This document shows positions 46,607-61,129 of a DNA stretch of 64,000 nt, piece by piece (within the stretch, counting starts at the first letter, position 1; every line of letters starts with the position of its first letter). The stretch lies in contig NZ_FOKT01000001.1 of assembly GCF_900112305.1 (NCBI RefSeq), positions 248,001 through 312,000 of the forward strand, written 5' to 3'. This DNA is from Microbulbifer thermotolerans (GTDB taxonomy: Bacteria > Pseudomonadota > Gammaproteobacteria > Pseudomonadales > Cellvibrionaceae). The position numbers and the translations under genes are program-made. The notes under the pieces were generated by a model. That model did no database searches. It had not been told where the DNA came from and saw only the letters and a program-made list of their open reading frames with translations.

Positions 46607-48319
46607 TTAATCTTTGGTTACCCGGTTTGCCTCCTCCAGACTGGTAATTCCCATTACCACCTTGCGCAATGCGGAGGTGCGCAGGTTGTTAAAGCCTTCC
46701 TTGCGCGCCTGGTCGGCAATCTGAATAGAGTTGCCGCCCTCCATTATAATTCTGGAGATCCCCTCGGTGATGCGAACCACTTCATAGACCCCCACGCGCC
46801 CCTTATAGCCCTTGCTGCAGTGCTCGCAGCCCACGGGCTGGTAGATGGTCCACTCCTTGCGGTCGATGGTGACCGCGTCGAACCCCTCTTGCTTCAGGAC
46901 TTCTTGCGGGAGGTCGATAGGCTTCTTGCACTCGCTGCACAGCCGTCGCGCCAAGCGCTGGGCGATGATCAGGCTGACGGAGGTGGCGATATTGAATGAG
47001 GGAACCCCCATATTCATCAAGCGCGTCAGGGTTTCCGGTGCCGAATTGGTGTGCAGGGTGGAGAGCACCAAGTGGCCCGTCTGCGCGGCCTTGATTGCGA
47101 TTTCCGCGGTTTCCAGGTCACGGATCTCCCCCACCATAACGATATCCGGGTCCTGGCGGAGGAAGGAGCGCAGCGCCTCGGCAAAGTTCAATCCCACCTT
47201 GGCAGAGACGTTGACCTGGTTGATGCCCTCCAGATTGATTTCCACCGGGTCTTCCGCCGTGGAGATATTCCGCTCGGGTGTATTGAGGATATTGAGACCC
47301 GTATACAGGGATACAGTTTTGCCGGAGCCGGTGGGACCGGTCACCAGAATCATGCCCTGGGGCTGGGCCAGCGCGTCCAGATAGAGCTTTTTCTGGTCGT
47401 CCTCGTAACCGAGGGCGTCGATACCGAGTTTTGCGGAGGAGGGATCGAGAATCCGCAGAACGATTTTTTCTCCCCAAAGCGTCGGCAGGCTGTTAACCCG
47501 GAAGTCAATAGCTTTGGTTTTGGACAGCTTCATCTTAATACGGCCGTCTTGGGGCACCCGCCGTTCGGAGATATCCATCTTGGACATCACCTTTAGGCGC
47601 GCGGCCAGGCGAGTTGCCAGCTGGATCGGCGGTTTGGCCACCTCGTGCAGCACCCCGTCGGTACGGAAGCGCACCCGGTAGCTTTTTTCGTAGGGTTCGA
47701 AGTGGATATCCGAGGCACCAGTGCGGATTGCGTCTAGCAGCACCTTGTTAACAAAGCGCACAACCGGTGCTTCGTCGCCTCCCAGGCTGTCGTCATCATT
47801 GCGCTCGTCGTCAGCACCATCGACATCGAGGGAATCCAGATCCTCGTCATCCATACCGTCGAGGCCGGCCCCCATATCGCCGCCATCGGACAGGTAGCTG
47901 TCGATGGCCTTGGCCAGTTTGTCCGCTTCGACCAGTACCGCTTCAGTATTGAGGCCTGTATTGAAATTGATCTCGTCCAGCCCGGCGAGATTGGTGGGAT
48001 CGGCGACGGCTACAAACAAGCGGTTTCCGCGCTTGTAAAGGGGTAGGGCAAAGTGTTTGCTGATCAGTTTTTCGTCAACAATATCCCTGGGGATCAGATC
48101 AAAGTTATAGCTTGAGAGATCGAACAGCGGTGAGCCAAAAGCCTGCGAGGCGATACCGGCAAGATCCCGGCTCTTAACCAGTTTGGCCTCCACCGCGTGC
48201 TGGGCAAAGGTCTGATTTTCCCGCTTGGCCGCCTTGGTGGCGGAAACCGCGGTGGCTTCATCGAGAACCTGGTCGGCTACCAAACGCTTGGCCAGGCCCG
48301 AGAGTTGGCTAACACTCAT
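46607..48319 (-). CDS. pilB: Type IV pilus assembly ATPase PilB
   Basis: 570 residues. N-terminal MshEN/GspE-N region, then an acidic, Asp/Gly-rich linker (about 146-185), then the hexameric secretion ATPase with Walker A GPTGSGKT at about 328-335, the Asp box EDPVEINLEGINQV and His box LSTLHTNSAPETLTRLM. A tetracysteine zinc site (CSECKK and CEHCSKG) is present. It powers pilus extension. No clear ribosome site precedes the ATG. Confidence 0.98.
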   Translation of the reverse strand: MSVSQLSGLAKRLVADQVLDEATAVSATKAAKRENQTFAQHAVEAKLVKSRDLAGIASQAFGSPLFDLSSYNFDLIPRDIVDEKLISKHFALPLYKRGNRLFVAVADPTNLAGLDEINFNTGLNTEAVLVEADKLAKAIDSYLSDGGDMGAGLDGMDDEDLDSLDVDGADDERNDDDSLGGDEAPVVRFVNKVLLDAIRTGASDIHFEPYEKSYRVRFRTDGVLHEVAKPPIQLATRLAARLKVMSKMDISERRVPQDGRIKMKLSKTKAIDFRVNSLPTLWGEKIVLRILDPSSAKLGIDALGYEDDQKKLYLDALAQPQGMILVTGPTGSGKTVSLYTGLNILNTPERNISTAEDPVEINLEGINQVNVSAKVGLNFAEALRSFLRQDPDIVMVGEIRDLETAEIAIKAAQTGHLVLSTLHTNSAPETLTRLMNMGVPSFNIATSVSLIIAQRLARRLCSECKKPIDLPQEVLKQEGFDAVTIDRKEWTIYQPVGCEHCSKGYKGRVGVYEVVRITEGISRIIMEGGNSIQIADQARKEGFNNLRTSALRKVVMGITSLEEANRVTKD

Positions 48320-48776: not shown

Positions 48777-49205
48777 ATGAAAAAGCAACAGGGTTTTACT
48801 CTTATTGAATTGATGATCGTGGTTGCGATTATCGGCATTCTGGCTGCGGTGGCGCTGCCGGCTTATCAGGATTACACGGTTCGCGCGAAAGTAACAGAAG
48901 GTTTAGCGCTGGCTTCTGCAGCTAAAGCCACAGTGGCTGAGAACGCGGTCAGCGGTACTTCCCCGCTGAACTTGGGCTGGACTCCACCGGGTTCTACTGA
49001 TGCTGTTAATGCAGTTGCTGTTGACGGCTCTACCGGCGTGATTACTATTACCTACAGCAATAGTGCAGGTAATGGCACTATTACGTTGAGTCCGGCTGCT
49101 GGTGGTACTGCACTGAGTGCTGGTACAGTCCCGACTACCAGTCTTGTTTGGGACTGCAAAGGCGGCTCCCTGGATGACAAATTTCGCCCGAGCAACTGCC
49201 GCTGA
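48777..49205 (+). CDS. pilA: Type IV major pilin PilA
   Basis: 142 residues. Type IVa prepilin leader MKKQQG followed by [20 protein letters not shown]; cleavage lies after Gly6 and mature Glu5 is present. The C-terminal disulfide loop is formed by Cys127 and Cys141. The mid-region is rich in Thr, Ser and Gly, giving many possible O-glycosylation sites. It ends in Cys-Arg, not Ser, which excludes the TfpO-type C-terminal Ser modification. ATG at 48777 with GGAG upstream; divergent from pilBCD. The sugar genes follow directly. Confidence 0.98.
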
Positions 49206-49265
49206 TGACAAGTTTCATCCGAGTCATTGCTGCCAGTATGCGGTGACAGTTTTATATAGTGTTAT

Positions 49266-49291
49266 AAAGGGCCCTATATTGGGCCCTTTTT
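49266..49291 (+). terminator. Rho-independent terminator after pilA
   Basis: AAAGGGCCC, 6-nt loop, GGGCCCTTTTT. Strong pilA transcripts should mostly stop here, with limited read-through into the AT-rich sugar genes. Confidence 0.92.
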
Positions 49292-49315
49292 AGTTTGTGC
49301 AGGCAATTATCTAAA

Positions 49316-51193
49316 ATGAAAAGTGTAAAGATATTTATCCCCTATACTCTTTTGCTGCTTCTCGTATTGTATTCGTTCGCAGCAGTTTTTGGGCTGCAAT
49401 ACGTTTGGGATGATATCTCTTTATTTGTGGATTCGCCGGCACTTCGGGCACCCGAAAATATTATTGATAGTATTAGTCAGCCTATTTTACCGGGAACCAG
49501 TTACTTCCGGCCGCTCCCTCTGCTTACTTTTATGGCTGAGTTTCTCTTGGTAGATGTCGATGCTACTTTGTCACATACGATTAATTTGATATTTCACTTG
49601 GCGACTACTTTGATTATCGCCTTATGTGTATGGACATTGATGAGGAATTTGCCTCAACGTTCCCGTGTTGTTGTCAGCCTATTAGGTGGTGCATTTTACG
49701 GATTGCACCCCGCGATGGTAGAGCCAGTCTCTTGGGTTGCTGGCCGTTTCGATCTAATGGCTGCATTCTTTTCATCGATTGCACTATATGCGGCGATATC
49801 CCTAAGTGGAATATGGCGAATGGTCGTGGTCTGTGCAGCTTTTTTTCTTGGTGCCTTGTCGAAGGAAATGGTAGCAACTCTGCCTGCTATCATTATTTTA
49901 GCTCTTTGGATAGCAAATAATCCAAATGGATTTTCTTATATGCAGCTGGGCAAGTTTGCATACAGCTATAAAAACTTATGTGCGGCTTTAGTTGCTACCG
50001 GAGTCGTTTATTTGATAGTTAGAGGTGCTGGCATCAATGGCTCCATTTACCATACGGATGATGTTCGGAGCGCGTACAGTTTTATCGATCAACTCACATA
50101 TATTGGAAATACAATTCTTTTCTATCTGAAAATGACCGTATGGCCTTTCAGTGATATTAACCCTATGCACAGATTTCCAGTTGTTTTTTCAGCTGCTGAA
50201 TATGTGGGAGGGGCTGTTGGTTGGGTTATTGCTGGAATTCTTATTTTTTTTAAAGGCCAATTGTACAAAAGATATAAGGCCTACGTGTTGGCATACCTAA
50301 TTTCTCTATTGCCGGTGCTGAATATTATCCCACTAACCATTGGTGAGAATATAGGTCATGAGCGCTTTCTGGCTGTTCCACTCTTGCTTTATGCGTTACT
50401 TATATCCCGTATTTTGAGTGATTTGATTACCAAATATGCTGACAAAAAAAATGTTGTCATCCTATTCGCTGGTTCGTTGCTCTGTTTGTGTGTGATTAAT
50501 GTAAAAGTAACAGTGCCTCTATGGTCAAACAATATAATTTTATGGAAGTGGGCATTTGATAAAAATCCAAGCGATCCGTATGTGCAGTTTAGTTTGATTT
50601 CTGCTGCTGTACGTAAAGGGCAGCTTGATTTGGCACAGGAAACTGTTAATAGTATTGTTGATATGGGATCAATTCCAAATAACGTAAAAGTTGCAGTTAG
50701 CTACTTGGAAGTTCGCAAGCACAATTTTAACGAGGCGATCAATCTTATAGAGAATTATCTATCCGAATCAAGAATGCTTTTGCCTCATGAAGTTTTATCT
50801 GATGAGGAGTTGGCTTCCGGGGATTACAGCCTTGGGGTTGATTCTCGGTACTTATCTATGTGGAGTGTGAGATCTGCGTATGGAGTTTTAGCTGAGTCAC
50901 GTATTGGCTTGAAGCAATTTGCCCAAGCCAAGAAAGACGCAGAAGTAATGCTTTTTTATCAGCCTTCTTATCCTCCAGCGCATCTGTTACATGCATTATC
51001 ACTGTATGGATTGGGGTTGGTGGAGGAAGCAGATAATGCTTTTCGTAGAGCGGAAGAGTTGATAATAGATGACTCTGTTGCTGAACTGTATGAAATTCGA
51101 AGACAGTTTTTTTCACAATTGTGTGAGCCAGATAGTGAAAATCCTTCATGTTCTTCTGAAATTGTTGATGCTTCAATGAAGAAGGAGGGTTAA
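49316..51193 (+). CDS. GT-C type membrane transferase with C-terminal TPR region (candidate pilin glycosyltransferase)
   Basis: 625 residues. About ten to twelve membrane helices fill residues 1-420. An acidic pair after the first helix (YVWDDISLF, Asp32-Asp33) and the FRPLPLLTFMAEF, LHPAMVEPVSWVAGRFDLMAA and GENIGHERFLAVPLL motifs are those of GT-C proteins of the TMTC/PMT type, which move sugars from polyprenyl phosphates to proteins in the periplasm. Residues about 440-610 are TPR-like helices. Position directly behind pilA parallels tfpW, the arabinosyltransferase of P. aeruginosa group IV pilins. Function is inferred from family and place; the donor could also be another lipid-linked sugar. 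Base composition is clearly AT-richer than in pilA. Confidence 0.7.
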   Translation: MKSVKIFIPYTLLLLLVLYSFAAVFGLQYVWDDISLFVDSPALRAPENIIDSISQPILPGTSYFRPLPLLTFMAEFLLVDVDATLSHTINLIFHLATTLIIALCVWTLMRNLPQRSRVVVSLLGGAFYGLHPAMVEPVSWVAGRFDLMAAFFSSIALYAAISLSGIWRMVVVCAAFFLGALSKEMVATLPAIIILALWIANNPNGFSYMQLGKFAYSYKNLCAALVATGVVYLIVRGAGINGSIYHTDDVRSAYSFIDQLTYIGNTILFYLKMTVWPFSDINPMHRFPVVFSAAEYVGGAVGWVIAGILIFFKGQLYKRYKAYVLAYLISLLPVLNIIPLTIGENIGHERFLAVPLLLYALLISRILSDLITKYADKKNVVILFAGSLLCLCVINVKVTVPLWSNNIILWKWAFDKNPSDPYVQFSLISAAVRKGQLDLAQETVNSIVDMGSIPNNVKVAVSYLEVRKHNFNEAINLIENYLSESRMLLPHEVLSDEELASGDYSLGVDSRYLSMWSVRSAYGVLAESRIGLKQFAQAKKDAEVMLFYQPSYPPAHLLHALSLYGLGLVEEADNAFRRAEELIIDDSVAELYEIRRQFFSQLCEPDSENPSCSSEIVDASMKKEG

Positions 51194-51226
51194 CGTTATT
51201 TAATAAATTTCTTGTTTTTCAGAATT

Positions 51227-51243
51227 GATCTACTTTGTAGATC
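51227..51243. other. Perfect short hairpin between the GT-C and UbiA-family genes
   Basis: GATCTAC, TTT loop, GTAGATC. No T-run follows, so it is more likely an RNA-processing structure or protein-binding dyad than a terminator. Confidence 0.4.
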
Positions 51244-51321
51244 ACTATGGATGGTGGAGAATACATTTATACTTGTTTCTAAAGGTCAAAGATTTTATGA
51301 GGTTGGCTGGAGTTCCTTAAA

Positions 51322-52263
51322 ATGAGAGAGTTGAGTGTATCGGGCGGGGCCCAAAGTCGAATGAGCCGAAGCATTCCTCTCTTTTTTAAGGGGATGCTTC
51401 CTGTATGGAAGCTGCTTAGACCGCATCAATATATAAAAAATAGCTTTGTTTTTATCGGCCCGCTTTTTGCGCATCAGTGGTCTTTGGTTACCATGCTTCA
51501 TGCATTTTGGGCTTTTTTTGCTTTTTGCTGTATGGCTAGTGCGGTATATATTCTCAATGATATTGTGGATATTGAAGCAGACCGTGAACACCCCGTTAAA
51601 AGAAATCGTCCAATCGTAAGTGGTGCGGTGTCTCTGACGCAGGCCAAAAGGCTTTTTATAGAGCTAACTATACTATCTCTTATTCTTTCTTCCCTTGTTA
51701 GTTTTTGGGTTGTGATCTTTGTTTTAATGTACTTGTTTCTTAATATTTTGTATTCGTGGAGGCTAAAACATATAGTCATTCTTGATGTATTTATTATTTC
51801 ATCTGGATTTATGTTGCGTATTTTGTCCGGAACTATTGGTCTTTATATAGAGCCGTCTCAGTGGTTGTTGCTTTGTGGGTTAATGGTGACATTATTGCTT
51901 GGATTCTCTAAACGTCGTGCTGAGCTACTGGTTTTGGAGGGTGCTGGGACCAATGGTATTCTTACGCGGCGAGTATTGGATGATTATAATCCAGCAATGT
52001 TGGATCAATTTATTGCGGTCACTGCAGCCTGCACGATACTGAGTTATGGGCTCTATACTGTTGCTCCTTCAACTATTGAGTTACATGACACTAAAAATTT
52101 AGTGTATACATTGCCTTTCGTTGTTTATGGAATATTGCGCTATTTGTTTTTACTCCATTTTAGGAAAAAGGGTCAGGATACAGCTAAAGACCTACTAACG
52201 GATAAGCACATGCTTGTAACCGTATTTGCTTGGGCTGGAGTTACCTTTGGGATTTTGGCGTGA
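51322..52263 (+). CDS. UbiA-family prenyltransferase, decaprenyl-phosphate phosphoribosyltransferase-like (Rv3806c type)
   Basis: 313 residues, about nine membrane helices. The first Asp-rich motif is NDIVDIEADREHP (Asn79-Pro91), followed by KRNRPIVSG, the exact pattern of mycobacterial Rv3806c/UbiA rather than of the ubiquinone or haem O enzymes. That enzyme joins phosphoribosyl pyrophosphate to a polyprenyl phosphate, the first committed step to lipid-linked D-arabinofuranose. The opening LLRPHQYIKNSFVFIGPLFA is also typical. ATG at 51322 with GGAG upstream. It begins a run of five genes whose ends overlap by 4 nt. Confidence 0.85.
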   Translation: MRELSVSGGAQSRMSRSIPLFFKGMLPVWKLLRPHQYIKNSFVFIGPLFAHQWSLVTMLHAFWAFFAFCCMASAVYILNDIVDIEADREHPVKRNRPIVSGAVSLTQAKRLFIELTILSLILSSLVSFWVVIFVLMYLFLNILYSWRLKHIVILDVFIISSGFMLRILSGTIGLYIEPSQWLLLCGLMVTLLLGFSKRRAELLVLEGAGTNGILTRRVLDDYNPAMLDQFIAVTAACTILSYGLYTVAPSTIELHDTKNLVYTLPFVVYGILRYLFLLHFRKKGQDTAKDLLTDKHMLVTVFAWAGVTFGILA

Positions 52264-53219
52264 TCGGTGGGCAAAAAGTTAATGAGAGGCAGCTGCACTT
52301 TTTGATTTTATCAATTTTGATTGCGGTTGTTGGATACTTGCTTTTTGCACTCTGGAGCGGATGGCAAGATGTAGTGAAGGGCTTCGTTTCTATAGGCCTG
52401 TGGGGTGTCTTTGTTGCTCTATGTCTTTCCTTGGTGAATTATAGTCTTAGATTCGTTCGCTGGCAGAAATATTTGCTCAATATGCAGTGTATAGTGCCTT
52501 GGAAAGCAAGTCTTAGAATCTATCTAAGTGGCTTTGCTTTAACAACCACCCCAGGCAAGGCTGGCGAAATATTTCGTGGTTTTTTGTTGAGTCGGTATGG
52601 TATTCAATTTTCTAAAACTTTTGCTGCTTTTATAAGTGAGCGTGTGTCGGACCTTACTGCAATAATATTTCTTGCATTTCTTGGTTTGTCATATTACCCG
52701 CAATTTCAAAATCTAGTATATGTTGGAGTGGGTTTATGTGTTTTTATATTAATTTGCTTAGCAAATCGCGAAGTATTGCAGGGGATTAAAAGCTGGACTG
52801 AAAGTAGGAAAAGCAAGTTGGCAAGAGTGATGAGAAGCACGGCAAATATGCTATTAAGCATGCGGGAGTGCCATCGCCCTAAAGTCCTACTTTTCGCCAC
52901 TTTTCTTAGTGTTATTGCATGGGGCGCGGAAGCATTAGCGTTTCACTGGATTTTAACGTGGTTGGGAGTGGATGTCCCCTTATATTTTTCATTTTTTGTG
53001 TATTCTATTTCAATGCTAGTTGGCGCCTTTAGTTTTTTGCCGGGAGGATTGGGGAGCGCTGAAGGCGTGATGATTTCTCTGTTGGTTTTTAAGGGAATGC
53101 CCATGCATGATGCTGTTGCAGCTACTATCGTTATTCGTTTAGCAACATTGTGGTTTGCCGTTTTTATTGGTTTGTTTGCATTGTATAGTAGCAGAAATGA
53201 GCAGGTAGCCACGATATGA
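52260..53219 (+). CDS. UPF0104 / lysylphosphatidylglycerol-synthase-TM-like membrane protein (candidate lipid-sugar flippase)
   Basis: 319 residues from GTG 52260, overlapping the previous stop (GTGA). About eight membrane helices with the family motif TTTPGKAGEIFRGFLL and FSFLPGGLGSAEGVMI. It lacks the catalytic domain of MprF, so it is not a lysyl-lipid synthase. Members of this family occur in glycolipid clusters and are suspected transporters. Embedded between the prenyltransferase and the epimerase genes, it is the best candidate for flipping polyprenyl-phospho-arabinose to the periplasm; mycobacteria have a different protein proposed for that step. This role is an inference. Confidence 0.7.
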   Translation: MIGGQKVNERQLHFLILSILIAVVGYLLFALWSGWQDVVKGFVSIGLWGVFVALCLSLVNYSLRFVRWQKYLLNMQCIVPWKASLRIYLSGFALTTTPGKAGEIFRGFLLSRYGIQFSKTFAAFISERVSDLTAIIFLAFLGLSYYPQFQNLVYVGVGLCVFILICLANREVLQGIKSWTESRKSKLARVMRSTANMLLSMRECHRPKVLLFATFLSVIAWGAEALAFHWILTWLGVDVPLYFSFFVYSISMLVGAFSFLPGGLGSAEGVMISLLVFKGMPMHDAVAATIVIRLATLWFAVFIGLFALYSSRNEQVATI

Positions 53220-54517
53220 GCAAGCAACTATTATCTTGGAACCGTTATCCCCGTCTTTGTGCGGCTCAAATACACGCCATCTCAAATAGACTTGCTCACT
53301 TACCTAACGCTGAAAGCTCTATGCTGGCTTACGGAAATGGGCGCAGCTATGGAGATGTATGTTTAAACCAAGATGGCTGTTTATTGATGACGCGTTATTT
53401 AGATCGCTTTATCAATTTTGATTCTGATTCTGGTATTTTGCGCTGTGAATCGGGGGTAACGTTAGAAAAAATACTTTCAATAATAGTGCCGAAAGGGTGG
53501 TTTTTGCCAAGTACTCCGGGAACTCGATATGTTACTATCGGCGGAGCTCTGGCAAATGATGTTCACGGGAAAAATCATCACTCTGTAGGCACTTTTGGTC
53601 ATCATATTCGAAGTTTTGAATTATTGAGATCAGATGGCCAGAGATTAGAATGTACGCCAAGTAAAAATTCAGAATATTTTCACGCAACTATTGGTGGGTT
53701 AGGGCTTACGGGTCTTGTAACCTGGGTTGAAATTCAATTGGCGCCTATTCGTAGCCCATGGATGCATGTTGAATCGAAGAGTTTTCCTAACTTGAAAGAA
53801 TTTTGGTCAATAAATCAGCAGTATGAGGCAGAGTGGCCTTATACTGTAGCATGGGTTGACTGTTTAGCTCAAAATAAACAAAGAGGGCGTGGTATATTTT
53901 TTTCTGCTCGTCATGCCTCAATGGAAGATGCTTTTCCTTGTTTTAAGGAAAATTCATGGCGGATTCCTGTCACGCCCCCTATTAGTCTTGTCAATAATTT
54001 AAGTGTTCGCGTTTTCAATGAAATTTACTACCGGAATCCAAACAGGCCGAACTCTAAATTGACTCATTATATACCTTATTTTTATCCATTAGATAAAATT
54101 AAAAATTGGAATCGTATATATGGTCGTAAAGGGTTTCTTCAGTATCAATGTGTTTTGCCTCATGAAAGCGCTGAAGCGGCTATAGATAGTCTTCTAGAAA
54201 TTATTTCAAAAAATGGCCAGGGTTCTTTTCTGGCGGTGCTCAAAACATTTGGTAATAGAGCCTCTCTGGGGATGCTCTCATTTGCCAGACCTGGAGTAAC
54301 GTTGGCGCTAGATTTTCCTAATCACGGAGAAAGAACCCTTCGTCTTTTGGATTCACTTGATTTTGTTGTAAAGGAGGCGGGCGGGGCCTTATATCCTGCT
54401 AAGGATTCAAGAATGTCTGGAGAAATGTTTCAATGCGGATTTCCCGAGTGGGAGAGCTTTATGAAATTTATAGATCCGAAGTTTTCGTCGAGTTTTTGGC
54501 GTAGGGTGACTCAATGA
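53216..54517 (+). CDS. dprE1: DprE1-like FAD-dependent decaprenylphosphoryl-ribose 2'-oxidase
   Basis: 433 residues. VAO-type FAD fold with AYGNGRSYGD (about 38-47) and TPGTRYVTIGGALANDVHGK, both characteristic of DprE1. Near the C-terminus YPAKDSRMSGEMF carries Lys396, matching catalytic Lys418 of the M. tuberculosis enzyme. The Cys387 position, target of benzothiazinone drugs, appears to be Ala364 here (LALDFP). It oxidises the ribose 2'-OH of the lipid-linked sugar as the first half of epimerisation to arabinose. ATG overlaps the upstream stop by 4 nt. Alignment with the mycobacterial protein is from memory. Confidence 0.88.
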   Translation: MSKQLLSWNRYPRLCAAQIHAISNRLAHLPNAESSMLAYGNGRSYGDVCLNQDGCLLMTRYLDRFINFDSDSGILRCESGVTLEKILSIIVPKGWFLPSTPGTRYVTIGGALANDVHGKNHHSVGTFGHHIRSFELLRSDGQRLECTPSKNSEYFHATIGGLGLTGLVTWVEIQLAPIRSPWMHVESKSFPNLKEFWSINQQYEAEWPYTVAWVDCLAQNKQRGRGIFFSARHASMEDAFPCFKENSWRIPVTPPISLVNNLSVRVFNEIYYRNPNRPNSKLTHYIPYFYPLDKIKNWNRIYGRKGFLQYQCVLPHESAEAAIDSLLEIISKNGQGSFLAVLKTFGNRASLGMLSFARPGVTLALDFPNHGERTLRLLDSLDFVVKEAGGALYPAKDSRMSGEMFQCGFPEWESFMKFIDPKFSSSFWRRVTQ

Positions 54518-55269
54518 ATGAGTTAAAAAAAGTTGTCATCTTTGGGGCGACCTCGGCCATTGCAGAACATGCTGCAAGAGATTTGATTGACCGAGGAGCA
54601 TCCTTGTTTTGTGTTGGCCGTGACCAAGGTAAGCTTGAAGTAATTGTAACTGATCTTAAGATTCGTAATTCAACTAGTCAGAGGATTGAAGGGTATGTGG
54701 CCGATTTGATGGATACAGAAGGCCACTCTCAGATACTGAAAGTAGCGGAGGAGACTCTAGGGGGCATCGATGCAGCCCTTGTTTGTTATGGCACATTACC
54801 GGACCAAAAAAGATGTGAATCTTCTTTTTCTATGGCTCGCGACGCAATAGACGTAAATGCCATCAGTGTGATTAGTTTACTTACTGAATTAGCCAATAAA
54901 TTTGAGAGTCAAAAAAGAGGCGTTATTGCTGTAGTTAGCTCAGTTGCAGGAGACCGAGGGCGACAGAGCAATTATGTCTATGGTGCGGCAAAAGGTATGG
55001 TATCAATTTTCATGCAGGGGCTGCGAAACCGTCTTGCTAAACATGGTGTATCCGTCGTAACTATAAAGCCTGGATTCGTGGATACTCCTATGACTGAAGG
55101 TTTTGATAAATCCAGTATTCTCTGGACAAAACCAGAGAAAATCTCTAAAGGGCTGGTAAATGCTATGGAGTCTGGAAAGAGCTGTGTTTATTTGCCAGGA
55201 TTTTGGCGTTGGATAATGCTTTTAATACGATGTATTCCTGAAGGTTTATTTAAGCGGTTGTCTCTGTGA
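54514..55269 (+). CDS. dprE2: DprE2-like SDR, decaprenylphosphoryl-2-keto-erythropentose reductase
   Basis: 251 residues. Short-chain dehydrogenase with the nucleotide site VVIFGATSAIAEHAAR (Gly11), catalytic Ser142/143 and Tyr156-x3-Lys160 (YVYGAAKG). The C-terminal membrane-associating end FWRWIMLLIRCIPEGLFKRL closely resembles that of mycobacterial DprE2, which distinguishes it from generic SDRs. It reduces the keto intermediate to give the arabino configuration and works as a pair with DprE1. Starts within the dprE1 stop (ATGA). Confidence 0.87.
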   Translation: MNELKKVVIFGATSAIAEHAARDLIDRGASLFCVGRDQGKLEVIVTDLKIRNSTSQRIEGYVADLMDTEGHSQILKVAEETLGGIDAALVCYGTLPDQKRCESSFSMARDAIDVNAISVISLLTELANKFESQKRGVIAVVSSVAGDRGRQSNYVYGAAKGMVSIFMQGLRNRLAKHGVSVVTIKPGFVDTPMTEGFDKSSILWTKPEKISKGLVNAMESGKSCVYLPGFWRWIMLLIRCIPEGLFKRLSL

Positions 55270-55886
55270 ATACTACCCCTGTCGCATTTTTTGACTTCGA
55301 TGGAACTTTAACTAAAAGTGACACATTGTTACCTTTTCTTAAGTTTGTTATTGGAAGACCCTCTTTCTATATTAAGTTAACAAAGGTGTCGCCTGTACTT
55401 ATTGCTTATATAGCTGGAGTTTTACGCAATGATGTAGCTAAAGAGATTGTGTTGCAAAGTTTTCTTTCTGGATATTCTTTGCAAGAGTTAAATGAATTTG
55501 GAAAAAGATTTTCTTCTGAAGTTATTCCGAAAATGCTTCGTGCTGAGGGAATTGATCGCCTTTTGTGGCATAAGTCTCAAGGGCATGATTGTGTGTTAGT
55601 TAGTGCCTCTCTCGATGTTTATCTAAGGTACTGGGCTAGATCATTTGGTTTTTCAGGTTTATTAAGTACGAGCCTCGTTTTTTCCAGTGATGGTGTTACT
55701 TGCGGAAATTTGAAAGGAAAAAATTGCTATGGTGATGAAAAATTAAGGAGAGTAAAGGAGTGGTTAAGTGATCGCTGTCCATCCTTGATATACGCATATG
55801 GAGATACAAAAGGTGATATGCCTTTAATTAAGTTTTCTAATAATGGATGGATATGGAAGAAGGGGAGGTTTGTTCGTATTGTTTGA
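55266..55886 (+). CDS. HAD-superfamily subclass IB phosphatase (probable 5'-phosphoribosyl-lipid phosphatase)
   Basis: 206 residues. Motif I FFDFDGTLT (Asp10, Asp12), motif II VLVSAS, and motif IV YGDTKGDMPLI are intact; helical cap between them. It resembles the HAD-IB phosphoserine-phosphatase-like group. In the pathway, the phosphoribosyl-lipid must lose its 5'-phosphate before epimerisation; mycobacteria use a PAP2-type enzyme (Rv3807c), whereas here this HAD protein is the only phosphatase in the cluster. GTG start overlaps the dprE2 stop by 4 nt. Substrate is inferred from context. Confidence 0.75.
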   Translation: MNTTPVAFFDFDGTLTKSDTLLPFLKFVIGRPSFYIKLTKVSPVLIAYIAGVLRNDVAKEIVLQSFLSGYSLQELNEFGKRFSSEVIPKMLRAEGIDRLLWHKSQGHDCVLVSASLDVYLRYWARSFGFSGLLSTSLVFSSDGVTCGNLKGKNCYGDEKLRRVKEWLSDRCPSLIYAYGDTKGDMPLIKFSNNGWIWKKGRFVRIV

Positions 55887-56074
55887 GTAAACTGTAAGAA
55901 TTACTAATTTTCGAGCTTATTAGGTTATGTTTGTTTATTATTTGAGATAAGCTACTGTTTGTAATTTTCAATCTGAATTATACAGTTTATAGCATTTTAC
56001 TCATTAGGAAGGTCCAATAAATTTGTTGGGTGGTATGTTTGCTCCAGTGTGCTTATGTAGTGTAAATCTTTTAG

Positions 56075-57685
56075 GTGACGGATAAAGAACAAATGTTTAC
56101 TGGCTTGGTTTTTGAAAAAAGATGGTCGTTAAATGTGCAAGAGTCCCATTTAGTATGGATGCTGCTGGCATTTTTTGTTTCAGTACTTGTGCATGTTGCG
56201 ATTGGATATCAGGACTTGGTTTATCTGGATAGAACCTTTTTGCCAGATGATACTTATTATACACTCTCGATTGCCAAGAATTTAGCACTTGGACGCGGAC
56301 CTTCAACAGATGGAGTAATTCTAACCTCCGGTTTTCAGCCATTATTTGCCTTTATGCTTGTCCCCGTTTTTTGGATTTTGGAGGAGGGGGCAGGACCAGT
56401 TTATGCTGCTATTGCATTAAGTGCTTTATTTGGGGTTGTGAATACCTGTTTGATTGGTTTTCTTATAAAGAGAATAACGCAATCTTATATCGTTGCCACT
56501 TTAGCAATGCTTTTTGTAACGTCATCGCCAGTTTTGTTGAAGAATAATTTCAATGGGCTCGAAACATCTTTATCTTCTTTTTTTGCATTGAGCTTGTTGT
56601 TGTTGGTTGGTGTTGTCCGCAAGGATAGTCCATGGTGGCATATGGTCATTATGGGAATTTGTTCTGGGCTTGCTTTATTGTCTCGTATAGATAATTGTTT
56701 TATTGTTTTTTTAGTTGGGGTTTGGAGTATTTTTACTCTTGGTTTTAAGAAGACAGTTTTTATAGTGTTGGCAGCATTGGGTGTGGTTGCTCCATGGTGG
56801 CTGTACTGCTTTTTTTCTTTTGGGTCGGTGATTCCTGAAAGTGGTATGGCTGTTAAACAGATTGTTGGGTTTCATCAAGAATTACACCTTACTTTATCTT
56901 CTTCTGTCGATAAAAGTTTATTAGCTTTAAATCGACCAGTGAGCATGATTTTAGACGTTCCAGTTCGAATCTATGTTGTGCTTTTTTTGTTTGCGATAGC
57001 TGTTTCTGCCTATAGGATTGTTAAATTTCGACGTTTGGATGAAGTTTCTATGTCAGCTATCGTAAGTGTTTTGTTATTTCTGTTTTATACGTTCTATTTA
57101 TCTGCATTTTGGTTTTTTGATCGGTATTATCATTTTTTGTTTTTGTGTTTGATCGTTTGTGTGGCTTATAGCTGGAATGCTGTTTTTTTATGGCTTTCAA
57201 GAAAAGAAAATGTGTCTTGGTTTAGATACGCATCTCTGTTTTTGATGTTATGTGCTATAGTGATTAATCTGACTTTATTGAAGCCGTTAAGATCTTCTCC
57301 TGATTCCAGTTTATATGCTGGAGATGAGGGGGCTCGTGGCTATGGTGAAGTGGCTCAAGAAATAATAAACGAATTGCCTGATGGTTCTACGATAGCTGCA
57401 ATGCAGAGTGGCGCTCTAGGATATTATGCGAATCGTAATATTAGAGTGATTAATTTGGATGGCGTTGTAAATAGGAATGCATATTTGGCTATCAAGGATA
57501 GTCAACTTGCAGAGTACTTAAGAGTAGAATCCGTAGAGTATTTTTCCGATTGGGGATTGAATGTATTAATGTTGCTGCGTTACTCCGGAGTTGAAAATTA
57601 TGAAAGGCTCCTTTCCCCTGTGAGAAATATGAAGCCGCAAGGGCAGGATCGTTTTACTATTTATCGGATTAACGAATCATTGTGA
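56075..57685 (+). CDS. Second GT-C family membrane glycosyltransferase (candidate arabinofuranosyltransferase)
   Basis: 536 residues, about eleven membrane helices and a C-terminal periplasmic domain of about 120 residues. The first loop holds FLPDDTYYTLSIAKNLALG (Asp58-Asp59) and LTSGFQPLFAFML, a pattern shared with AftB-like mycobacterial arabinosyltransferases and other polyprenyl-sugar users. It lies 188 bp after the HAD gene in AT-rich DNA, so it may be transcribed separately. It could transfer D-arabinofuranose to pilin or extend a glycan begun by the GT-C at 49316. The start is ambiguous: GTG 56075 or ATG 56093, neither with a good ribosome site. Confidence 0.68.
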   Translation: MTDKEQMFTGLVFEKRWSLNVQESHLVWMLLAFFVSVLVHVAIGYQDLVYLDRTFLPDDTYYTLSIAKNLALGRGPSTDGVILTSGFQPLFAFMLVPVFWILEEGAGPVYAAIALSALFGVVNTCLIGFLIKRITQSYIVATLAMLFVTSSPVLLKNNFNGLETSLSSFFALSLLLLVGVVRKDSPWWHMVIMGICSGLALLSRIDNCFIVFLVGVWSIFTLGFKKTVFIVLAALGVVAPWWLYCFFSFGSVIPESGMAVKQIVGFHQELHLTLSSSVDKSLLALNRPVSMILDVPVRIYVVLFLFAIAVSAYRIVKFRRLDEVSMSAIVSVLLFLFYTFYLSAFWFFDRYYHFLFLCLIVCVAYSWNAVFLWLSRKENVSWFRYASLFLMLCAIVINLTLLKPLRSSPDSSLYAGDEGARGYGEVAQEIINELPDGSTIAAMQSGALGYYANRNIRVINLDGVVNRNAYLAIKDSQLAEYLRVESVEYFSDWGLNVLMLLRYSGVENYERLLSPVRNMKPQGQDRFTIYRINESL

Positions 57686-57759
57686 AAAAGAGAGTAACTC
57701 ATTTGCATGCTTTCTGGGTTAAGCCTGTCATGGCATGGTGAAATATGGGGGAAAGGCTA

Positions 57760-57836
57760 GAGGCTATTCAAAATTCAGTGGTAGACAAATAGCCTCAGAG
57801 GGTGTTCAAAATTCTGTGTCAGCCAAATAGCTTCAC
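57760..57836. repeat. Two tandem ~38-bp units resembling insertion-sequence ends
   Basis: Units starting at 57760 and 57798 share GAGG-T-TTCAAAATTC-GTG and AAATAGC-TCA. The first unit also has 9-bp inverted ends (GAGGCTATT / AATAGCCTC). They lie at the border between the AT-rich sugar island and the GC-rich imu operon and look like leftover ends of a mobile element; no transposase remains. Confidence 0.55.
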
Positions 57837-57850
57837 AGACTGATGTATTC

Positions 57851-57876
57851 CTCCGAGCAAGCCCTCCGAGCAAGCC
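57851..57876. repeat. Perfect 13-bp tandem duplication
   Basis: CTCCGAGCAAGCC occurs twice back to back. It is part of the 57.69-58.04 kb gene-free stretch. The 76-codon minus-strand frame over it (57775-58005) has no protein features and resembles repeat-derived spurious ORFs. Confidence 0.7.
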
Positions 57877-58036
57877 GAAAAACGGGGCGCCCGCTATGAT
57901 AGCGTCAGGTTCCAATTGTGGATTGGATGTATCCTGTGTTCGGAGGCTTCGGTAGCAACTTGAGTAAGCTGCATTCTTTGGCGGAGCCGCCCTTAGCCCT
58001 GTCATCTTGACGATCTTCTGGGGGAGGGTATTTAGA

Positions 58037-61000
58037 TCACTGAAAACTCCTCACCCCCTGAACCTCCCCCCACTCCAAACACCGAACTTCCCGCCCAACC
58101 AAGTGAATCACCGGACTGTCGTCTGTACAGCGACTGCTGTCGATTTGTAGCCTGCCAGTGATCTCCAGAATACTTCCCCGCTTTATTTCCGCCCGGTAGC
58201 GCTGTTGTACTTGCTCCCAAAGTACGACATTGATCACGCCGGTCTCATCTTCCAGGGTCAGGAATATCACGCCCGAGGCGCTGCCAGGTCTCTGGCGGCA
58301 GGTGACAAGGCCGATGACGGTGGTGTGTTGGCCGTTGCGGTGGTGGATTAGGTCTTGTGCTTTGCAGTGTTGGGGGAAGCGGTTCCGGCGGCGGAGCAGG
58401 GCGATGGGGTGTTCGCGCAGGGTGAGGCCTGTGCTGGCGTAGTCGCTGTAGGTGTTGTCTTCCACGGAGTGGGCGGGGTTGTGTGTTGTGGTATCGGTAT
58501 TTTCTATTTCCAGGTGCAGTGATTGCCAGGTATCCAGGTAGCGATTTTCTGTCAGGCTGTTGAAGACGTTGGCACTTGCTAGGGCGGCGGCTTGTTCCCG
58601 GGGCAGTTGGGTTCGTGTGCGGAATTCATTCAAGGAGGTGAAGGCCCGCTTTGCGCGTTCGGTAATGATGGTTGTCGCGCTTTGTTCATTGACCCCTTTG
58701 ATCAGGCGCATGCCCAGGCGGAGCTTTGGGGGTTCGAGTTGGCGCTTGTGTCGGGGCGGCAGTGGTGTGGCGAGTTCCAGTTTGTGGTGCCAGTGGCTGT
58801 AGAGTACGTCTATGGGCAGAATTTTTACGTTGTGGCGCTGGGCGTCGTAGATCAGTTGAGCGGGGGCGTAGAAGCCCATAGGCTGGCTGTTGAGCAGACC
58901 GCAGTAGAAGGCGGCGGGATGATGGCGTTTTATCCAGGCGGAGAAGTAGGCCAGCAGAGCAAAGCTGGCGGAGTGAGATTCGGGAAATCCGTAGGCGCCG
59001 AAGCCTTTCATCTGATTGAAGAGCTGCTCGGCAAAAGTTGCTTTGTAGCCGTTGGCGAGCATTCCGCGGATCAAACGACCTTTGAATTTGTTCAGATTGC
59101 CATTCCTGCTCCAGCTGGCCATAGCGCGGCGAAGTTCATCCGCTTCGCCACCGCTGAAGCCGGCGGCAATCATGGATAGCTGGATCACTTGTTCCTGGAA
59201 AATAGGAACACCGAGGGTGCGTTCGAGAACCGGGCGCAGTTTTTCGTGAGGGTAGGTGACGGGCTCCAGCCCCTGTTTGCGCTTTAGGTAGGGGTGCACC
59301 ATGCCGCCCTGGATAGGACCGGGCCGGACTATGGCGACCTCTATTGTGAGCTCGTAAAAATTGCTTGGCCGCAGTCTGGGCAGCATACTCATTTGCGCGC
59401 GGGATTCTATCTGGAATACGCCGACGGTATCGGCACGGCAGATCATATCGTAAGTGGCTTTGTCTTTGGGCGGAATGTCCTGCAGGCGCAGGCGGGGGCC
59501 GTAGAGGGCGATGTAGTCCAGGGATTTGCGCAGAGCGGTGAGCATGCCCAGGGCGAGAATGTCCACCTTCATCAGTTTTAAGTCTTCTATATCTTCCTTG
59601 TCCCATTGCACGATGGTGCGGTCTTCCATGGCTGCATTTTCCACGGGCACCAGGGTGTGCAGGGGTTGCTCGGTAATGACGAATCCGCCCACATGCTGGG
59701 ACAGGTGGCGGGGGAAGCCGAGAAGTTGTTGCAGTAGCGGGGGCAGGGTTCTGCCCGCGGTGCTATGGGGATCTATGCCGGCTTTCTGCATTTGTTGGGG
59801 AAAGTCTTCGAGCTTGTCCCACCAGGCGCGCTCTGCGATCAGCTGTTCAATGGTGGCGGCGCTGAGCCCCAGGGCTTTGCCGATATCGCGCAGGGCGCTT
59901 TTAAAGCGATAGGTGATTTTTGTCGCGGCCAGACCGGCGCGGTGGCGGCCGTATTTGCGGTAGATGTATTGGATGATCTCTTCGCGCCTTTCGTGCTCGA
60001 AGTCCACATCGATATCCGGCGGTTCGTTGCGCTCGCGGGAAATAAAGCGCTCGAAGAGCAGGGATATTTTGTGCGGGTCTATTTCAGTGATAAACAGGCA
60101 ATAGCAGACTACTGAGTTGGCGGCGGAGCCGCGCCCCTGGTAGAGGATGTGTTGGCTGCGGGCGTACCGGACGATGTCGTGGATGGTCAGGAAGTAGTGT
60201 TCGTATTGCAGCTCGGCGATCAGGGCCAGTTCTTTTTCGATCTGTGCATCGATATGTGGTTCGGGGCCCTGGGGCCAGCGCGCTTTTCTGCCGGTTTCTA
60301 CCAGTTCACGCAGGTAGGTGCCGGCCTGTTTGCCGGTGGGCAGCACTTCGGAGGGGTATTGGTAGCGCAGTTCGTCGAGGCTGAAATGGCAGCACTCAGC
60401 AATGGCCAGGGTATTTTTTATGGCCTGGGCGGGATAGAGCGCTTTAATTTCTTCCAGGCTGCGCAGATAGCGCTCGGCGTTTTGCTCAATGCGGTAGCCC
60501 AGTTGCTCCAGGGTGCAGTTATGGTAGTTGGCATTGAGCACGTCCTGCAGGGGCTTGCGGCTGCGGCAATGCATCAGTACGGCATTGGTGGCGACCAGGG
60601 GCAGGTCTTCCCGTTTGGCGAAGGCAACTAATTCCGTGCAACGCTGGTTTTGTTGCGGCAGCAGGTGGTTGCTGATGGCGATGTAGAGGCGTTTGCCGAA
60701 GTGTTGTTTCAGTGCTGGGGGAATTTCCTGTGTCGATCTCTGTGGCAGCCAGATGGCGATGGTGTTTTTGCATATTGCCAGAAGGTCTTTGAGGTGGGTT
60801 TGATAGCGGCCTTTTTCTGCGCGCAGGCGAGAAGTGGATATCAACTGGCAGAGTTCACTGTAGGCGGTTTTGTCGGGGGCCAGGAGAGTCAGCTGCCCGC
60901 CTTCCTGCAGGCGGAAGAAGCTGCCACAGATCAGTTTGAGATCGCCTCCCTCCGCTTTCAGTTTTTCCAGTGCTTTATAAGCGCGGACGATTCCGGACAG

Positions 61001-61129
61001 GGAGCACTCGTCGGTGATGGCCAGGGCCTTGTAGCCCAGTTGATGTGCGGTTTGGATCAATTCCTGTGGGTGGGAGGCACCCTGCAGGAAGGAGAAATTA
61101 CTTTGGCAAAAGAGCTCGGCGTACTGCAT
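58037..61129 (-). CDS. dnaE2: Error-prone DNA polymerase DnaE2
   Basis: 1030 residues, shorter than replicative DnaE. PHP domain at the N-terminus (ELFCQSNFSFLQGASHPQEL, ALAITDECSLSG), C-family palm with the catalytic aspartates in EPPDIDVDFEH, and a C-terminal OB domain (VIFLTLEDETGVINVVLW). The QGRGSAANSVVCYCL segment is DnaE2-like. It extends past lesions as part of the ImuA-ImuB-DnaE2 mutasome. It is last in the SOS-controlled operon. Confidence 0.97.
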   Translation of the reverse strand: MQYAELFCQSNFSFLQGASHPQELIQTAHQLGYKALAITDECSLSGIVRAYKALEKLKAEGGDLKLICGSFFRLQEGGQLTLLAPDKTAYSELCQLISTSRLRAEKGRYQTHLKDLLAICKNTIAIWLPQRSTQEIPPALKQHFGKRLYIAISNHLLPQQNQRCTELVAFAKREDLPLVATNAVLMHCRSRKPLQDVLNANYHNCTLEQLGYRIEQNAERYLRSLEEIKALYPAQAIKNTLAIAECCHFSLDELRYQYPSEVLPTGKQAGTYLRELVETGRKARWPQGPEPHIDAQIEKELALIAELQYEHYFLTIHDIVRYARSQHILYQGRGSAANSVVCYCLFITEIDPHKISLLFERFISRERNEPPDIDVDFEHERREEIIQYIYRKYGRHRAGLAATKITYRFKSALRDIGKALGLSAATIEQLIAERAWWDKLEDFPQQMQKAGIDPHSTAGRTLPPLLQQLLGFPRHLSQHVGGFVITEQPLHTLVPVENAAMEDRTIVQWDKEDIEDLKLMKVDILALGMLTALRKSLDYIALYGPRLRLQDIPPKDKATYDMICRADTVGVFQIESRAQMSMLPRLRPSNFYELTIEVAIVRPGPIQGGMVHPYLKRKQGLEPVTYPHEKLRPVLERTLGVPIFQEQVIQLSMIAAGFSGGEADELRRAMASWSRNGNLNKFKGRLIRGMLANGYKATFAEQLFNQMKGFGAYGFPESHSASFALLAYFSAWIKRHHPAAFYCGLLNSQPMGFYAPAQLIYDAQRHNVKILPIDVLYSHWHHKLELATPLPPRHKRQLEPPKLRLGMRLIKGVNEQSATTIITERAKRAFTSLNEFRTRTQLPREQAAALASANVFNSLTENRYLDTWQSLHLEIENTDTTTHNPAHSVEDNTYSDYASTGLTLREHPIALLRRRNRFPQHCKAQDLIHHRNGQHTTVIGLVTCRQRPGSASGVIFLTLEDETGVINVVLWEQVQQRYRAEIKRGSILEITGRLQIDSSRCTDDSPVIHLVGREVRCLEWGEVQGVRSFQ

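Follow-up and report, generated by a model that had tools for sequence, protein, structure and literature searches.

The pilA locus of Microbulbifer thermotolerans

The subject of this analysis is a group of seven genes that follows the type IV pilin gene pilA in Microbulbifer thermotolerans and encodes a putative pathway for the synthesis of lipid-linked D-arabinofuranose (D-Araf) and its transfer to the pilin. The genes lie in a 64,000-nucleotide (nt) stretch of contig NZ_FOKT01000001.1 (positions 248,001 to 312,000), which is called the window and to which all coordinates without a further label refer. The features of the locus are the following:

48777..49205, plus strand: pilA, type IVa major pilin, 142 amino acids (aa) (Pfam Pilin PF00114, E 2.4e-18; N_methyl)
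49266..49289, plus strand: terminator-like hairpin of 9 pairs with a T-rich tail, between pilA and tfpW
49316..51193, plus strand: TfpW homologue, GT-C membrane glycosyltransferase with a C-terminal TPR-like part, 625 aa
51322..52263, plus strand: ubiA-family polyprenyl-phosphate phosphoribosyltransferase, Rv3806c-like, 313 aa (NF008977; PDB 8j8j)
52260..53219, plus strand: PF03706 membrane protein (LPG synthase TM / flippase-like), GTG start at 52260 (PF03706, E 2.3e-47)
53216..54517, plus strand: dprE1-like flavin adenine dinucleotide (FAD) oxidase, 433 aa (PDB DprE1 chains; NF053785)
54514..55269, plus strand: dprE2-like SDR reductase, 251 aa (PRK07102; NF053786)
55266..55886, plus strand: HAD-IB phosphatase, 206 aa (PF12710, E 1.6e-36)
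56075..57685, plus strand: second GT-C protein, 536 aa (remote match to an AftB-like GT-C profile)
49200..57900, no strand: low-GC block between pilA and dnaE2, GC 0.36-0.45 versus about 0.57 in the flanks
46607..48319, minus strand: pilB, with pilC beyond (name read from the translation)
58037..61129, minus strand: dnaE2 (name read from the translation)

The genes that a first-pass annotation of this DNA had named downstream of pilA were all present as open frames at these positions, and all eight frames, pilA and the seven genes at 49316-57685, are intact. Translation of PilA starts at the ATG at 48777, and a short leader is followed by the motif GFTLIEL. The protein ends in SNCR and thus lacks a C-terminal Ser, as had been noted. 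The gene is divergent from pilB/pilC. About 130 nt separate tfpW from ubiA, and the five middle genes, from ubiA to the HAD gene, are joined into a predicted operon by four exact 4-nt overlaps (GTGA at 52260, ATGA at 53216, ATGA at 54514, GTGA at 55266); the earlier wording that five genes overlap by 4 nt is correct in this sense. The block at 49200-57900 has a GC content of 0.36-0.45 between flanks of about 0.57 and is therefore probably an acquired island. Terminator-like hairpins were more frequent across the region than expected (15 observed versus 9.2), and the pattern alone is a weak indication. PMC11841053 reports attenuating terminators in working Pseudomonas pilin cassettes, at the corresponding place downstream of pilA.

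Predicted enzymes for lipid-linked D-arabinofuranose

The UbiA-family protein scored 251.8 bits with NF008977, the NCBIfam model of decaprenyl-phosphate phosphoribosyltransferase, above the cut-off of 234, and was matched to the solved enzyme 8j8j with an E value of 1.2e-31. DprE1, the only one in the genome at E 1e-20, could be aligned with solved DprE1 chains over residues 35-430 of 433 (E 1.6e-71), and DprE2 matched PRK07102 with 290 bits, above the cut-off. The PF03706 protein is about 50-53% identical to a protein encoded next to dprE1/dprE2 in the Pseudomonas loci L165, L168, L173 and L186. The HAD phosphatase showed slight similarity (E 4e-4) to the N-terminus of the fused HAD-UbiA protein in L165.

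Searching named genomes with the DprE1 alignment gave at least 588 relatives, the best 80 of which were examined as loci. In 47 of these 80, the UbiA open reading frame (ORF) had at least 450 aa, the size of a HAD-UbiA fusion. Separate ubiA, flip (the PF03706 gene), dprE1, dprE2 and had genes occurred together in four of the 80 loci, from Halomonas sp., Methylophaga sp., Alcaligenaceae and Thioalkalivibrio sp., with the caveats that the Halomonas dprE2 runs into a longer frame and that the Thioalkalivibrio ubiA and flip were called in overlapping frames. These four loci (L110, L111, L113 and L114) contain no pilin motif in the stretch examined, and the ORFs after the set differ among them. The presence of DprE1 alone was ruled out as a sign of pilin modification, as a pilin motif was found in 1 of the best 80 loci, which had been selected independently of TfpW (45 of the 80 stretches were longer than 20 kb). 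On contig C43 of genome G659, from the Pseudomonas family, two DprE1 genes lie about 11 kb apart.

The first GT-C protein is a homologue of TfpW

The first GT-C protein is 33% identical to TfpW of Pseudomonas paraeruginosa PA7 over 452 aa (BLASTP, E 5e-56). The reference was the 641-aa protein encoded after pilA in genome G662, which was taken as PA7. In G662 this gene is followed by a gene for an NCBIfam TfpX/TfpZ-family protein, in agreement with the order pilA-tfpW-tfpX that PMC12369383 gives for PA7. A quick tree built from 36 relatives placed the window's protein in a 14-member clade with a Shimodaira-Hasegawa-like approximate likelihood ratio test (SH-aLRT) support of 100, and a 10-member inner clade that contains both this protein and PA7 TfpW had a support of 99; the tree has SH-aLRT values only and several long branches. 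A W-D-D motif near the N terminus was invariant in all nine aligned sequences, including that of PA7, and may be the acidic first-loop motif of GT-C enzymes. TfpW may resemble the eukaryotic TMTC transferases; a literature search for TMTC paired with pilin gave no match. When TfpW profiles were compared with solved structures, nearly all of the matches listed were to the TPR part, and one weak match elsewhere (E 0.36) was judged to be due to chance. The predicted structures were of low confidence, with predicted local distance difference test (pLDDT) values of 43.8 for TfpW and 42.8 for the second GT-C protein.

The first-pass annotation had spoken of two GT-C transferases. The first one is without a Pfam glycosyltransferase match, and the only Pfam match of the second one, to PMT, stays just below the cut-off (21.6 versus 22.7 bits). 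From its homology, the first GT-C protein is presumed to be the pilin D-arabinofuranosyltransferase. No phage-borne copy was confirmed when the TfpW and DprE1 alignments were run against viral contigs, and a scan of plasmids found no copy of TfpW.

TfpW co-occurs with DprE1

The genomic association of TfpW with the sugar pathway was quantified in three samples. In the Pseudomonas-family sample (248 genomes from the same family as Pseudomonas sp. ICMP 561, taken as Pseudomonadaceae), DprE1 was present in 30 genomes (E 1e-60) and TfpW in seven (E 1e-20; weakest E 3.6e-159). All seven TfpW genomes, three of which are rows of the search alignment, contained DprE1, compared with 30/248 overall; the hypergeometric probability is 1.9e-7, and this figure, like the one that follows, treats genomes as independent and ignores shared ancestry, which weakens the argument. 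Of 144 genomes in the family to which the window belongs, four have TfpW-type proteins (E 1e-10) and 12 have DprE1 (E 1e-20). Three of the four have both, G051 being the exception; without the window's genome, DprE1 occurred in 2/3 TfpW-type genomes versus 11/143 (p 0.016). In the class sample of 369 genomes, 69 had DprE1; a strong TfpW was confined to two genomes, the window's own and G211, and both of these have DprE1 as well. Across the 14-member clade, DprE1 was found in 13 genomes, and two members (G526 and G534) had been reached because they were DprE1-positive.

The wider family of TPR-bearing GT-C proteins was rejected as a D-Araf marker: DprE1 accompanied the weaker relatives in 8/29 genomes of the class sample versus 67/367, which is not significant (p 0.14). 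The link to D-Araf is thus limited to the TfpW clade. TPR-bearing GT-C proteins outside this clade (loci L060-L089) adjoin pilin genes in 12 of the 30 genomes inspected (34 with a match), including the window's own genome and G211, and might glycosylate pilins with other sugars.

Islands that unite pilA, tfpW and the sugar genes

A pilin gene lies directly upstream of tfpW in 12 of the 14 clade genomes. The tfpW gene of G534 comes after pilB-pilC, and a pilin-like ORF is found further on. The first-pass annotation had proposed to look for the same gene set near pilA in other genomes, and pilA, tfpW and D-Araf genes were indeed found in one island in five others, making six with the window (G000): G068 and G096, which belong to the same genus as the window, G556, G597 and G627. 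In all six islands dprE1 and dprE2 are side by side. G627 retains the window's order ubiA-flip-dprE1-dprE2-had at 52-67% identity. G068, G096 and G556 have a GtrA/DUF212 kit, and G597 has a UbiA ORF of HAD-fusion size together with a PF03706-type protein. Because the kits differ among the islands, and because the sugar genes of PA7 lie about 1.15 Mb from pilA, the same combination of pilA, tfpW and sugar genes has probably been assembled more than once from differing parts. Between its pilA and its D-Araf genes, G127 has no more of TfpW than a C-terminal remnant (L030:7961-8707), which comprises the last hydrophobic stretch and the TPR part.

In summary, the TfpW-like D-Araf pilin system that had been guessed from gene order gains support from the homology with PA7 TfpW, the clade, the co-occurrence with DprE1 and the five other islands.

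The second GT-C protein and its AftB-like relatives

The second GT-C protein had no direct match to solved chains and none to NF041481. It was matched to an AftB-like GT-C profile by hhalign with a probability of 96.5 (E 7e-10, 276 columns, 18% identity). One clear homologue was found among the ORFs gathered, adjoining the D-Araf set in G137.

The gene after tfpW in G068, G096, G556 and G597 and a gene near dprE1/dprE2 in PA7 form one family, the members of which are:

L033:16002-17699, AftB-like homologue beside tfpW
L010:6727-8418, AftB-like homologue beside tfpW
L268:5474-7162, AftB-like homologue beside tfpW
L269:4815-6623, AftB-like homologue beside tfpW
L287:13618-15246, AftB-like homologue near the D-Araf genes of PA7

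The family profile matched the solved AftB structure 9dlf with an E value of 1.5e-32. The G597 and PA7 proteins reached 68 and 38 bits with NF041481, far under the cut-off of 1050.

Pilins and the slot after pilA

PilA of the window was compared, in its variable domain, with the pilins of 46 loci. The five nearest pilins (53-74% identity) all belong to TfpW loci from other families (G556, G211, G612, G595 and G627). Among 20 loci of the same genus that lack a TfpW of this clade, the highest identity was 50%. The earlier remark on a Thr/Ser-rich mid-region of PilA is weak: the protein's Ser+Thr content is 23.9%, compared with a mean of 25.8% in 12 TfpW-linked pilins (the window's included) and 21.7% in 33 others. 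TfpW-linked pilins are slightly richer as a group (p 0.001), the window's PilA is not, and Ser/Thr richness was dropped as evidence.

In 20 same-genus genomes (L333-L352), the slot after pilA was empty before dnaE2 or was occupied by genes for TfpX-like proteins (3/20), by ORFs of about 380-490 aa, or by longer ORFs (about 620-660 aa) accompanied by other genes; these genomes had been picked among those without DprE1 and TfpW matches, so that the counts give no frequency. The ORFs of about 620-660 aa in G074 and G072 are weak relatives of the TfpW profile (E 5.6e-18 and 1e-9). As the slot is variable among same-genus genomes, it appears to behave like a pilin-cassette exchange site.

A model for pilin arabinosylation and its alternatives

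Taken together, the island is very likely a self-contained pilin-arabinosylation system, and sequence comparison gives good support to the view that the pilin is arabinosylated. In the cytoplasm, the UbiA-family enzyme would join phosphoribosyl pyrophosphate and a polyprenyl phosphate, probably undecaprenyl phosphate, to yield the lipid-linked phosphoribose 5-phosphate. The HAD phosphatase would remove the 5-phosphate, and DprE1/DprE2 would invert C2 to give lipid-phospho-D-arabinofuranose, which the PF03706 protein would flip across the membrane. In the periplasm, the TfpW homologue would attach D-Araf to Ser/Thr residues of the PilA encoded directly upstream. The chain might then be extended by TfpW itself or, probably, extended or capped by the second GT-C protein. 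For P. paraeruginosa, PMC12369383 and PMC11841053 report resistance to pilus phages, and by analogy protection from such phages is a plausible benefit here as well.

Several observations weigh against this reading. DprE1 reached 351.5 bits (E 8.6e-105) with NF053785 and DprE2 160 bits with NF053786; because both values are under the NCBIfam equivalog cut-offs (500 and 250, respectively), orthology is likely, not certain. The second GT-C protein is not clearly an arabinosyltransferase by its profile matches, and none was seen in the island of G627. TfpX, which follows tfpW in PA7, has no family match among the proteins of the window's island, to which the search was confined. The pairing of pilin and TfpW is partly shown by the comparison of variable domains and does not seem to be strict: the TfpW-linked pilin of G068, from the same genus, is only 45% identical to that of the window, and the pilins of G096, PA7 and G597 were outside the best 18 pilins listed. 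One TfpW-clade gene, in G051 (L008:1025-2929), occurs without DprE1 at E 1e-20 and without a pilin gene on its contig of 24.7 kb. DprE1 sets are widespread and mostly away from pilin genes, and the pathway thus seems often to serve other glycans.

The last point bears on an alternative in which D-Araf enters another surface glycan (lipopolysaccharide, capsule or exopolysaccharide) and the site next to pilA is incidental. DprE1-type sets are common in the class (69/369 genomes), the pilin motif was seen in a single one of the best 80 named loci, and the five-gene set occurs without a pilin gene in the stretch examined in Halomonas (L110) and beside genes that by eye are of polysaccharide type in Alcaligenaceae (L113). 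However, the GT-C gene adjoining pilA encodes a TfpW homologue, genes of the TfpW clade directly follow a pilin gene in most of the genomes (12/14), and the island, which holds the genome's sole DprE1 (E 1e-20), contains no recognised gene for another glycan; we therefore regard this alternative as improbable. It is similarly improbable that the pilin carries another pentofuranose, e.g., ribofuranose, or that D-Araf sits atop another first sugar. The subthreshold scores of DprE1/DprE2 and the presence of two GT-C genes would fit such a scheme, and PMC11127046 indicates that ribofuranose can be delivered by a UbiA-type synthase that acts with a HAD module, a GT-C enzyme and a flippase. Against it stand the nearly full-length alignment with solved DprE1 (E 1.6e-71) and the adjacency of both epimerase subunits in 6/6 linked islands. 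That the island is silent or decayed is very unlikely indeed: a hairpin stands between pilA and tfpW, and G127 retains only the C-terminal remnant of TfpW next to pilA and the sugar genes, but the eight frames of the window are intact with tight overlaps, and PMC11841053 describes similar terminators as attenuators in working pilin cassettes.

Comparison with known systems

The arabinosylation system proposed for the window resembles that of P. paraeruginosa (strains Pa5196 and PA7, group IV pilins), in which pilA is likewise followed directly by tfpW and the genome has a UbiA-type synthase, DprE1 and DprE2. PA7 also has an AftB-related GT-C gene near its sugar genes (L287), of which the window has a remote relative. 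In contrast to the window, where the whole pathway is part of the pilA island, the sugar genes of PA7 are separated from pilA by about 1.15 Mb, with dprE1 at 6.46 Mb and pilB at 5.31 Mb, and they include GtrA- and DUF212-type genes instead of the HAD phosphatase and the PF03706 flippase. DUF212 and GtrA versions are likewise found in G068, G096 and G556; a DUF212/PAP2-type phosphatase and a GtrA-type carrier are presumably the mycobacterial types. The mycobacterial decaprenyl-phospho-arabinose pathway (Rv3806c, Rv3807c, DprE1, DprE2, Rv3789) shares the UbiA-type synthase and both epimerase subunits with the window, whereas the HAD protein replaces an unrelated phosphatase and the PF03706 protein replaces the small Rv3789 carrier. 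The product would go to a protein in the window and goes to galactan in mycobacteria.

The three-component pentofuranose systems of Citrobacter youngae O1/O2, as described in PMC11127046, have the UbiA-type synthase, HAD module, flippase and GT-C enzyme in common with the window. They use a MATE flippase and GT136 and build O-antigen side chains, whereas the window has PF03706 and TfpW next to pilA and DprE1/DprE2 in addition. PMC12369383 mentions homologous sugar-gene systems for P. syringae pv. syringae B728a and pv. phaseolicola 1448A. A description of a pilA-linked D-Araf island outside Pseudomonas was not found in the literature searched, which was available in part and did not cover the primary TfpW papers, so that this is not proof of absence. 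Within this scope, the earlier phrase "undescribed version" is fair for a self-contained pilA-linked island with HAD and PF03706 proteins, which is still a variant of the described TfpW system.

Implications

According to the sources consulted, D-Araf on pili is documented for P. paraeruginosa only, where the sugar genes are apart from pilA. A compact, complete island in another family makes the entire pathway testable as one piece and suggests that other bacteria harbour a pool of arabinosylated pili. For a pathway that is best known from mycobacteria, it also offers other versions of the phosphatase, the flippase and the arabinosyltransferase. Quite possibly, although we hold this with slightly less than even confidence, pilin arabinosylation is no speciality of a single Pseudomonas species. 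It would then be a modular trait of Gammaproteobacteria that coats pili and spreads horizontally. It would consist of a pilA-tfpW pair, often co-inherited, and at least three D-Araf kits at the same slot (the ubiA-flip-dprE1-dprE2-HAD type, the GtrA/DUF212 type and the HAD-UbiA-fusion type), and in the genus of the window the slot would hold alternative pilin cassettes, which would fit selection exerted by pilus phages. If so, the AftB-like enzyme in several islands would mean that the pili may bear mycobacterium-like arabinan ends.

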